Shown here: one piece after another, positions 50,772 through 54,224 of the stretch
Numbering within the stretch: position 1 is the stretch's first letter
Layout: each line of letters opens with the position of its first letter
NCBI GenBank assembly: GCA_900313925.1
Contig: OMTF01000017.1
Location: 1 to 64,000, forward strand
Direction of reading: 5' to 3'
DNA: 64,000 bases
From: an uncultured Eubacteriales bacterium
Lineage (GTDB): Bacteria > Bacillota > Clostridia > Oscillospirales > Oscillospiraceae
The notes under the pieces: model-generated
Told to the model about the DNA's origin: nothing
Database searches by the model: none
Seen by the model: only the letters and a program-made list of their open reading frames with translations
Program-made: the position numbers and the translations under genes

Positions 50772-50867
50772 ATGTTTGTTCAGCACAGTACGCTGTTAAA
50801 ATATTTGCAATTTTCATTCGTTATTTATGCGTTTTTAACTTGCAACTCTTTCGTAAACATACTATAA
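50772..50867 (+). CDS. Possible 31-residue hydrophobic peptide
   Basis: A perfect AAGGAG lies 5 bases before ATG 50772. The frame encodes a peptide beginning MFVQHSTLLKYLQF with a hydrophobic aromatic middle, and it stops at 50865-50867 inside the -10 of the TAXI promoter. No family is recognised. It could be a real membrane peptide, a leader or chance in AT-rich DNA. Confidence 0.3.
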   Translation: MFVQHSTLLKYLQFSFVIYAFLTCNSFVNIL

Positions 50868-50868
50868 T
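50840..50868 (+). promoter_or_regulatory. Promoter of the TAXI transporter operon
   Basis: TTGCAA (50840-50845) and a perfect TATAAT (50863-50868) are 17 bases apart, about 75 bases before the gene. Confidence 0.75.
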
Positions 50869-50942
50869 TACTCCATGCCCTTCGCGCCTGAAATCCGTGA
50901 TCTTCCGGCGCGAAGCAAGAATGAAATCGAGGAGGAACTACA

Positions 50943-51971
50943 ATGAAAAAGATTCTGGCATTGGTCCTCGCTCTCTGCATGGTTTTTGTCCTGTGCGCGT
51001 GCGGTTCCGGCAATTCGGGCACCACTTCTTCCGCTTCTCCGGATGCAGCCGCGTCATCGGATACTTCTGCAGCGAGTACGGATACAGAAACCGTGGCGGT
51101 TACTGCCGTAATTATTGCAGCGGATACGGTCCCGGAAGATGTAATTTACAAATTCACGTCAACAATCTTTGATAATCTGGACGCCATCTCCGAGCAGCAC
51201 GCGAAAGGCTCGGAGGCAAGCCTTGAGCAGGCGGCTTCCATTACTTCCGTGCCGTACCATCCCGGCGCCGCGAAGTATTATCAGGAAAAAGGCATTACTG
51301 TCGAGGCGGTCAAGGAAGGTGCGGGGACCGGATCCGGCTCTGCGCTGACCTTCGGTACCGGTGGCGAAGCCGGAACCTATTATGCGTTCGGCGGCGTCCT
51401 TGCCCAGTATGTGTCTTCGAACACCGACGTTTCCGTCACCGCCGTTTCTTCCGGCGGCTCGCAGGCAAATATTGAGGATATCGCAGCGGGAACCATTCAG
51501 CTTGGATTTGTCCAGTCCGACGTTATGAGCTATGCCTTCAACGGCGAGCGTCTGTTTACGGAACCGGTGAAAGGATTCTCCGTCGTTGCCGCCATGTACA
51601 TGGAACAGGTTCAGATAGTAACGACCGATCCTTCCATCAAGTCTGTTGCGGACCTGAAAGGCAAAACCGTATCCATCGGCGCTTCCGGCTCGGGCGTATA
51701 CTTCAACGCAATTGATGTTCTGGAATCCTACGGCCTGTCGGAATCCGACATCAGCCCCGTGTACCAGAGCTTCGGTGACAGTGCGGACAGCCTGAAGGAC
51801 GGAAAGATCGACGCCGGCTTCATCGTTGCCGGCGCACCGACAACGGCTATCACGGACCTTGCCGCTTCAAAGGATGTATACCTCGTCAGCCTGGACGAAG
51901 AGCATATCCTGCAGCTGCTTGAGAAATCTCCGTACTATGTCGCCTATACGATTCCTGCCGGAACCTACTGA
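50943..51971 (+). CDS. Circularly permuted TAXI-family TRAP solute-binding lipoprotein
   Basis: Substrate-binding protein of 342 residues for the adjacent TRAP permease. A signal with lipobox LCAC (C20) is followed by a Ser/Ala/Thr linker. Residues about 46-125 (TVAVTAVIIA through VPYHPGAAKYYQEKGITVEA) match what in TAXI proteins is the C-terminal end. A Gly/Ser-rich linker (126-134, GAGTGSGSA) then leads into the family's normal N-terminal part (LTFGTGGEAGTYYAFGG at 135-151, then GSGVYFNAI and APTTAITDL). The protein ends at TIPAGTY, exactly where normal members run on into the VAV segment. The mature fold could be unchanged if the native termini are close. TAXI proteins often take C4-dicarboxylate or glutamate-like ligands; the ligand here is unknown. 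Confidence 0.9.
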   Translation: MKKILALVLALCMVFVLCACGSGNSGTTSSASPDAAASSDTSAASTDTETVAVTAVIIAADTVPEDVIYKFTSTIFDNLDAISEQHAKGSEASLEQAASITSVPYHPGAAKYYQEKGITVEAVKEGAGTGSGSALTFGTGGEAGTYYAFGGVLAQYVSSNTDVSVTAVSSGGSQANIEDIAAGTIQLGFVQSDVMSYAFNGERLFTEPVKGFSVVAAMYMEQVQIVTTDPSIKSVADLKGKTVSIGASGSGVYFNAIDVLESYGLSESDISPVYQSFGDSADSLKDGKIDAGFIVAGAPTTAITDLAASKDVYLVSLDEEHILQLLEKSPYYVAYTIPAGTY

Positions 51972-52047: not shown

Positions 52048-52073
52048 CTGCGTCATCTTCTCAGATGACGCAG
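52048..52073 (+). other. Intergenic stem-loop 2 (TAXI-permease)
   Basis: CTGCGTCATC (52048-52057) pairs perfectly with GATGACGCAG (52064-52073) around TTCTCA. A weak T-rich tail (TGTATTTTGT) follows, so partial termination is possible. Confidence 0.7.
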
Positions 52074-52166: not shown

Positions 52167-54224
52167 ATGGCAGAAGACATAAACAATACCGCAGCGCAGC
52201 AAACAAAGGAGCAGGCGGAAGACATCATGCGCCAGTACGACCGTGAGTCCGCCACCCGTATCTGGACGGGAACGCCGGCTATTATTGTAAAGATAATACT
52301 GGCTGTTTTCTCGCTCTACTGCATCTGGTCTACTTTGTTTTCAACGGCGGACCTGCCTATTCGCCTTACGGCGTTTCTCGGGTTCACCATTATTATGGGA
52401 TATTTGACCTACCCTGCAAAAAAGAAAAACGTAAAGCCGAACTCCCTTCCCTGGTATGACATACTGCTGATGGTCCTGGGTGCCTTTTCCTTTTTCTATT
52501 ACTGCCTCAACTATTCCACCCTGGTAAAGGTGCTCACCAGTTCCTCGGCTCTTCAGACGATGAGCAATGCCTGGTTCTATGTTGCGATCGCCATCGTCGG
52601 AATCCTCTGCACAGCGGAACTGTGCCGGAGATGCGTCGGCGTTCCCATTCTCTGCGTGGTTGCAGCCCTTGTAATCTATACCTTCATCAGCATGATGAAA
52701 GGCAGCCAGAATTTTTATCAGGTTCTGACCCGTGTACTGTACACGCTCTATTACGGCACCTCCGGAATTCTGGGCACGCCGGTACAGGTCTGCCTGAAAT
52801 TTATCGCCGTCTTTATCATCTTCGGCGCCTTTCTGGAGCGCACCGGAATTTCCAATTTCTTCATCGCTCTTGCAAATTCCATCGCAGGCTCCTCCTGCGG
52901 CGGTCCCGCAAAAGTCGCGGTGATCTCCTCCGCACTCTGCGGCATGGTTTCCGGCTCCTCCGTCGGCAATACCGTAACAACCGGGTCCGTAACCATTCCG
53001 ATGATGAAGAAAACCGGGTACAAACCGGAATTTGCCGGAGCCGTGGAGGCGGCCGCCTCGACCGGCGGTCAGATCATGCCTCCCATCATGGGCGCCGCGG
53101 CGTTTCTGATGGCTGAATATATCGGCGTTCCCTATGGAAATGTTGCCGTTTGGGCAATTCTCCCGGCAGTTCTCTATTTCTTCGGCATATTCATTGCCGT
53201 TCATCTGGAAGCCCGGAAACTCGGATTGAACGGAATTCCGCGCAGCCAGCTTCCGAATTTCTGGAAGCTTCAGAAAAATGTTTACCTGCTCCTGCCGCTG
53301 ATTCTTCTGATCTGGCTGGTAACGGCAAACATTCGTTCGCTTCAGTTCTCCGCTTCCATTGCCATCATCCTGGCCATTATCGTCAGCATCCCGGGCTTCA
53401 TCATGGAAGGCAGGGAGGACGTAAAGACGGGAAGGAACGCCGGCTCCGTTCTAGGCCTTACCGCGAAAAAAACGGGCGCCATGATACTGAACTCCCTAGA
53501 GGCAGGAGGGCGCGGATGCATTACCGTTATTTCCGCCTGCGCCATGGCAGGCATCATTGCCGGATGCATCACGGTAACCGGCCTTGCCTCCAAGCTTATA
53601 AGCTCCATTGTAGCCGTAAGCCGCTCCATTCCCTATCCGGGGCTGGCACTGTTCCTTGCGCTGTTCCTGACAATGCTCTGCTGCATTGTCCTCGGCATGG
53701 GCGTTCCGACAACCGCAAACTACTGCATTATGGCTTCGACCTGCGCACCGATTCTTATCACCCTGGGAATTCCGAAAGTTGCTGCACATTTCTTCGTGTT
53801 TTATTTTGGAATCGTAGCGGATATCACGCCGCCGGTCGCGCTGGCTGCCTATGCGGGTTCCGCCATCGCGCATTCCGATCCGATGAAAACCGGGCTCAAT
53901 GCGACAAAGCTTGCGATTGCAGCGTTTATTGTTCCGTACATTTTCGCGATGAATCCTTCGATGCTCCTTCTGGATCAGGGCTTTCTCAATGCCCTGCAGG
54001 TCATTGTAACCTCTCTGCTGGGAATCTTCGGGGTCGCCGCAGCGCTGAACGGCTATACCTTTACCCATATTCACTGGCTGGGACGGATTGCCTTTGCCAT
54101 CGGCGGCCTGTCTCTGCTGATTCCCACGACGGCGACGGACGTTATCGGTCTGGTTCTGCTCGCCGGCATGACCGTTGTTCAATATATGAAGCGGAAGAGG
54201 ATTTCGGCAAAACAGGCTGTGTAA
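52167..54224 (+). CDS. TRAP transporter permease, fused small and large subunits (DctQM type)
   Basis: Membrane protein of 685 residues. About four helices in the first ~190 residues correspond to the small DctQ subunit, and the remaining ~12 helices form DctM. The conserved blocks include GGPAKVAVISSALCGMVSGSSVGNT and GQIMPPIMGAAAFLMAEY, and the second half has GMGVPTTANYC. The fused form is the usual partner of TAXI proteins and normally works with sodium. GGGAGG precedes the ATG. It follows the binding protein after 195 bases holding three hairpins. Confidence 0.93.
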   Translation: MAEDINNTAAQQTKEQAEDIMRQYDRESATRIWTGTPAIIVKIILAVFSLYCIWSTLFSTADLPIRLTAFLGFTIIMGYLTYPAKKKNVKPNSLPWYDILLMVLGAFSFFYYCLNYSTLVKVLTSSSALQTMSNAWFYVAIAIVGILCTAELCRRCVGVPILCVVAALVIYTFISMMKGSQNFYQVLTRVLYTLYYGTSGILGTPVQVCLKFIAVFIIFGAFLERTGISNFFIALANSIAGSSCGGPAKVAVISSALCGMVSGSSVGNTVTTGSVTIPMMKKTGYKPEFAGAVEAAASTGGQIMPPIMGAAAFLMAEYIGVPYGNVAVWAILPAVLYFFGIFIAVHLEARKLGLNGIPRSQLPNFWKLQKNVYLLLPLILLIWLVTANIRSLQFSASIAIILAIIVSIPGFIMEGREDVKTGRNAGSVLGLTAKKTGAMILNSLEAGGRGCITVISACAMAGIIAGCITVTGLASKLISSIVAVSRSIPYPGLALFLALFLTMLCCIVLGMGVPTTANYCIMASTCAPILITLGIPKVAAHFFVFYFGIVADITPPVALAAYAGSAIAHSDPMKTGLNATKLAIAAFIVPYIFAMNPSMLLLDQGFLNALQVIVTSLLGIFGVAAALNGYTFTHIHWLGRIAFAIGGLSLLIPTTATDVIGLVLLAGMTVVQYMKRKRISAKQAV

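Follow-up and report, generated by a model that had tools for sequence, protein, structure and literature searches.

On the evidence of its alignments, the ORF at 50943-51971 (+ strand) of the window, a 64,000-nucleotide stretch of DNA from an uncultured Eubacteriales bacterium, is a natural circular permutation of a TAXI solute-binding protein. The ORF encodes a TAXI-family TRAP solute-binding protein of 342 amino acids in which the block order is swapped, the former C-terminal part of TAXI (block 1) lying ahead of the former N-terminal two thirds (block 2). The fuller reading, to which a probability of roughly 0.88 is given, is of a lipid-anchored permutant, with a putative glutamate-like ligand, that feeds the adjacent fused TRAP permease and that originated by duplication and trimming. 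Dozens of species have kept the permuted form beside its usual transporter, which marks it as a functioning natural variant, with transport itself presumed from sequence. Its wide spread and its predicted single covalent hinge strand both go beyond what had been claimed in an earlier note on this DNA.

All of the features described here are on the + strand. Upstream of the gene are a promoter-like site (TTGCAA-17-TATAAT; 50840-50868), suggested by consensus scan alone, and a Shine-Dalgarno sequence (AGGAGG; 50930-50935), read from the sequence. The lipoprotein signal peptide (residues 1-20; 50943-51002) carries the lipobox LCA-C20, of which C20 is invariant among 18 aligned permuted proteins, and is followed by a low-complexity tether (residues 21-46; 51003-51080), pLDDT being below 50 at residues 17-41. 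Block 1 (residues 47-118; 51081-51296) contains hinge strand 2 (48-60) and the C-terminal part of domain 1. The junction linker TVEAVKEGAGTGSGSA (residues 119-134; 51297-51344), supported by conservation, pLDDT, and dN/dS, leads into block 2 (residues 135-342; 51345-51968), supported by phmmer, PF16868, TIGR02122, and model fits, within which is hinge strand 1 (residues 212-227; 51576-51623). The new stop (51969-51971) is immediately 3′ of AGTY; of 60 permuted proteins, 47 have the stop in this very place and the other 13 have three extra residues. The earlier note located all of these correctly: the ORF and its two blocks, the segment that joins them, the lipobox, and the stop after AGTY. Its joining segment, GAGTGSGSA, is present, but the full conserved linker is the 16 residues of TVEAVKEGAGTGSGSA rather than GAGTGSGSA alone.

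The partner gene (52167-54224) encodes a fused TRAP permease of 685 amino acids (TIGR02123, E 5e-187). Between the two genes, a terminator-like scan identified a perfect stem-loop of 11 bp (52048-52073), at which the expression ratio of binding protein to permease may be set. The permuted ORF is the sole TAXI in the genome from which the window comes, the remaining matches there being limited to the signal peptide region.

Circular permutation is strongly supported by swapped alignments to the PDB, Pfam, and NCBIfam. When the protein was compared with the PDB by phmmer, residues 125-342 matched chain positions 18-238 of the Thermus thermophilus structure 8u79 and residues 46-118 matched positions 243-316. 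Likewise, residues 137-342 align to positions 1-214 of PF16868 and block 1 to positions 219-289, while in TIGR02122, which has 320 positions, block 2 aligns to 28-244 and block 1 to 250-320, each being matched once. Both blocks therefore match the family profiles, in swapped order. The scores are 271.4 bits for TIGR02122 (cut-off 84.35) and 254.1 bits for PF16868 (cut-off 27), and the best matches of the protein are all TAXI. Every alignment gave two swapped stretches and none was colinear, such that the canonical TAXI block order was not recovered, nor was any colinear alignment to an ordinary TAXI protein obtained. Two-stretch profile matches of this kind may conceal a reordered protein. It had also been claimed that no relic of the lost C-terminal block lies after the new stop, and this held: relics of either block were sought by tblastn 5′ of the ORF and between the stop and the permease and none was found (best E ~0.02). 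The weak match after the stop (E 0.02) was rejected as a block relic, as 41 of 200 shuffles score equally high.

Homologues with the swapped order were found in independent genomes. Among 400 genomes of the window's family, a full-length permuted match is present in 19, from 11 genera, one of these reaching residue 309 only; many others have the canonical order only, with block 2 matching alone in one piece. A wider scan, in which the permuted alignment was compared with 84,980 species genomes, yielded 80 loci, of which 62 are permuted (L038-L099) and the remainder canonical (L100-L117). Judged by their record labels, the permuted carriers belong mostly to the Oscillospiraceae (Oscillibacter, Dysosmobacter, and Lawsonibacter), including one isolate, Oscillibacter sp. 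1-3, with further carriers in records labelled Lachnospiraceae or Parasporobacterium and in rumen Spirochaetes/Sphaerochaetaceae; 10 out of 150 relatives of one spirochaete carrier have the permuted protein. A class-wide scan of 391 genomes, with few per group, added no full-length permuted protein. That the majority of carriers are metagenome-assembled genomes would suit an assembly artefact, but the identical junction recurs in many independent assemblies and in the isolate Oscillibacter sp. 1-3 (L043), and an artefact is therefore rejected. A pseudogene is likewise opposed by the absence of stops and by low dN/dS, so that the chance of either is negligible.

The fused TRAP permease is 3′ of the permuted gene at 58 of the 62 loci, and it is directly downstream at permuted and canonical loci alike. 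Purifying selection acts on both blocks and on the linker: in 19 close pairs, dN/dS came to 0.10 and 0.11 for blocks 1 and 2, respectively, and to 0.31 for the linker. Several permuted copies depart from the common arrangement. In the most divergent permuted TAXI, L026/L099 (G371, G802), at ~50 % identity, ~8 kb of flank contains no TRAP permease, and its genome also encodes a canonical TAXI with 44 % identity (L128). Ten spirochaete copies (L066, L067, L069, L072, L073, L075, L076, L080, L082, and L083) end in AGTYGSK and are at ~-28 to +5 bases from the permease, overlapping or nearly so, six of them having no lipobox. In L025 and L092, from the window's genus, the permuted match stops at residue 309 with an unrelated C-terminus beyond, suggestive of a frameshift or a deletion, either real or from assembly.

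AF2 models were made of the permuted protein (pLDDT 86, pTM 0.81) and of a canonical relative, L028 (pLDDT 88.7, pTM 0.83). The helices and strands of the latter reappear in the former, rotated in order, with the exception of a short helix in the turn where the cut falls (residues 238-241 of L028). With 1us4, the canonical model gives a fit of 289 residues at Z 38.6. The permuted model fits 8u79, 1us4, and 8s4j over residues 131-342 (Z ~22, rmsd 1.8-2.0), the fit to 1us4 covering 212 residues (Z 21.9) of block 2 only; this confinement to block 2 is to be expected where an order-keeping aligner meets a permuted chain. In VcGluP, domain 1 is formed by residues 29-115 and 268-328 and domain 2 by 132-254, with hinge strands at 116-131 and 255-267 (PMC11574862). 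Mapped by alignment offset, these hinge strands correspond to residues 212-227 and 48-60 of the permuted protein, which are the two long strands of its model; those of the L028 model are at 111-126 and 247-259.

By this mapping and the prediction, the cut is between domain 2, which ends at Y342, and hinge strand 2, and therefore each lobe is contiguous in sequence and there is a single covalent hinge strand. The predicted chain order is hinge strand 2, the C-terminal part of domain 1, linker, the N-terminal part of domain 1, hinge strand 1, and domain 2. Hinge strand 1 is thus predicted to be the sole remaining covalent link between the lobes, whereas the canonical protein has two. The linker would bridge the former termini, with the fold probably closing there, and hinge strand 2 would now be the first element of the core, with the tether attached to it. 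A protein with one covalent hinge may differ in lobe opening, closing, and handover, and gene conversion may have carried lineages from one form to the other, canonical or permuted, with no change of permease; this is offered tentatively, as possible rather than probable. If true, the switching between forms on the same permease is a natural experiment on the flytrap mechanism.

The linker appears to be more than a spacer. It is 16 residues long in 54 of 60 permuted proteins (15-17 overall), the motif V-[AS]-V-K-[ED]-G-A-G-x-G is nearly invariant among them, and mean pLDDT over residues 121-130 of the AF2 model is ~95. This conservation and the high pLDDT indicate a predicted ordered bridge, not a loose spacer.

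The ligand site is preserved, as the earlier note had suggested. Residues Y45, S75, Q93, and E125 of VcGluP correspond to Y146, S173, Q191, and E221, which are invariant among the 18 aligned permuted proteins; these, like every known ligand residue, are within the uninterrupted block 2. Of the VcGluP residues, Y45 and Q93 are reported as critical for the ligand (PMC11574862). Other positions differ, Y200/M201 of VcGluP being replaced by I294/V295 and D157 by V252. With the key residues kept and these three changed, the ligand is likely to be an amino acid or another small carboxylate, with a glutamate-like compound as the likeliest candidate, as far as comparison of residues can indicate. It would be bound in the cleft between the two lobes and then passed to the neighbouring fused TRAP permease, as in canonical TAXI. 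Other clues to the ligand were sought: an Rfam search for a regulatory RNA gave no match, and among the genes flanking permuted loci the permease alone is widely conserved.

The earlier note suggested that the permutation moves the lipid anchor to another side of the protein, which could alter the presentation of substrate. A comparable anchor-shift idea has been proposed for Tp0684 (PMC4990184). Selection for moving the anchor to another side of the protein would accord with the presence of a lipobox in most permuted proteins with a complete N-terminus, with a shortest Cys-to-core tether of 13 residues in permuted proteins against four in canonical ones, and with the tether now meeting a hinge strand. 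However, eight permuted proteins have a signal peptide without a lipobox (L039, L041, and the six spirochaete copies L067, L069, L072, L075, L076, and L083), which weakens this rationale, canonical relatives of the same family are lipoproteins too, and the tether difference fades after redundancy removal (medians 18.5 and 15, p 0.09). Such selection is therefore rather improbable; anchor relocation is a consequence of the permutation and is not well supported as its cause.

The permuted gene may have arisen in an ancestor among the gut Clostridia through tandem duplication, read-through fusion, and trimming, with the permuted form later spreading both vertically and horizontally and undergoing gene conversion by canonical copies. 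The proposal that a tandem copy was trimmed at both ends is indirectly favoured by the linker, although no intermediate with a duplicated block in one ORF was present among the loci examined. Canonical C-terminal tails end in EVASVK (L116), EVASTK (L113), or TVASK (L110), and many permuted linkers start VASVKEGAG, some reading EVASVKEGAG. The linker therefore resembles the former C-terminal tail extended by GAGxG and then fused to what was once the start of the mature protein. An ORF of 734 amino acids in the window's family (L209:1628-3829; G309) has a canonical-order TAXI and a membrane part resembling GltS, the latter recognised by eye and with no profile; it was considered as a duplicated-block intermediate and rejected, since it resembles a TAXI-GltS fusion whose TAXI part keeps the canonical order.

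A single origin with strictly vertical descent is rejected by the AU test, in which all permuted proteins as one clade gave p-AU 0.0004 and 1e-5. One permuted clade is not rejected on block 1 alone (p 0.45, from only 72 columns), nor is the main permuted clade as one clade (p 0.55). Two canonical-order proteins, L105 and (in one tree) L106, are placed weakly within the main permuted clade, whether by tree error, conversion, or return to canonical order.

Three permuted proteins, L086, L094, and L097, have blocks that nest in canonical clade S (support 100/97). Their permeases are also S-type; the one beside L097 shares 89 % identity with its counterpart at the canonical locus L193. Within the group, S-type sequence reaches the linker from both sides. 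The linkers nevertheless match those of the main clade: that of L086, EVASVKEGAGTGDSRN, shares 14 out of 16 residues and 81 % of its DNA with that of L047, EVASVKEGAGTGDSQA, and its DNA identity to another main-clade linker is up to 84 %. S-type blocks and permease with a main-clade linker point to gene conversion. Two independent permutations, one in the main clade and one in the L086 group, with convergent linkers, would account for the rejection of one clade, for the nesting of blocks and permeases in clade S, and for the different C-terminal end of the L086 group (AKDVYFGS). The linker match is unlikely without common descent, however, and conversion from a canonical copy would swap the blocks but not the linker, which is the pattern observed. 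A second permutation is thus unlikely, and common descent of the permuted form with conversion of its blocks by canonical copies is the simplest reading.

The permutation could also be a neutral accident, in which a permuted duplicate that folds and works equally well spread by drift and transfer. The permeases served by the permuted and the canonical form are close (89 % identical), the ligand residues are the same in both forms, and selection is similar on both blocks, all in keeping with a neutral change. Its persistence in many genera, its crossing between phyla, and the keeping of linker length and motif speak for more than neutrality, but would fit neutrality after fixation too. The odds of neutrality are put at a little short of even.

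In comparison with known systems, the protein is a circularly permuted variant of the known TAXI family (TIGR02122, PF16868; VcGluP 8s4j, TtGluBP 1us4/8u79). It resembles these proteins in its block sequences, ligand residues, predicted two-lobed fold, size, partner TRAP permease, and lipoprotein signal, the last of which is present in many TAXI proteins. It differs from canonical TAXI in its swapped block order, in the new linker between the former termini, and in its new termini, which lie at the boundary of domain 2 with hinge strand 2 and are predicted to leave one covalent hinge strand instead of two. Permuted and canonical proteins that are ~80 % identical serve close permeases, and therefore the parts played by the second hinge connection, by the position of the tether, and by chain order during folding can be tested on natural pairs. 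With its termini at the hinge, the permuted TAXI also provides a naturally evolved scaffold on which sensors could be built.

Records of natural circular permutation among transport binding proteins are few. No permuted TRAP protein turned up in a literature search of sources mostly outside the subscription journals, and a search for natural permuted transport binding proteins, covering few subscription papers, gave Tp0684 as the sole clear precedent. Unusual TAXI-family architectures are known in BP0403 and the TAXI-GltS fusions (PMC12344293), but in these domains are added or fused, not reordered, and the fusion in L209 is likewise of canonical order. Engineered permuted halves of ribose-binding protein demonstrate that lobes tolerate permutation and can stand alone (PMC9815098, PMC10601554); these differ from the permuted TAXI in being laboratory-made and of Type I fold. 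Tp0684 (TpMglB-2) of Treponema pallidum, 'Type Ic / Cluster Bc', is a naturally permuted lipoprotein solute-binding protein of solved structure, from an ABC transporter for glucose, with a Type I (Cluster B) fold to which permutation adds a fourth cross-over (PMC4990184). Permuted proteins of the Tp0684 type have a similarly odd host range of Gram-positive gut bacteria and spirochaetes (PMC4990184). The permuted TAXI is, like Tp0684, a natural circular permutation of a lipoprotein solute-binding protein, but of another family, fold, and transporter class, and it is predicted to lose a covalent cross-over where Tp0684 gains one.
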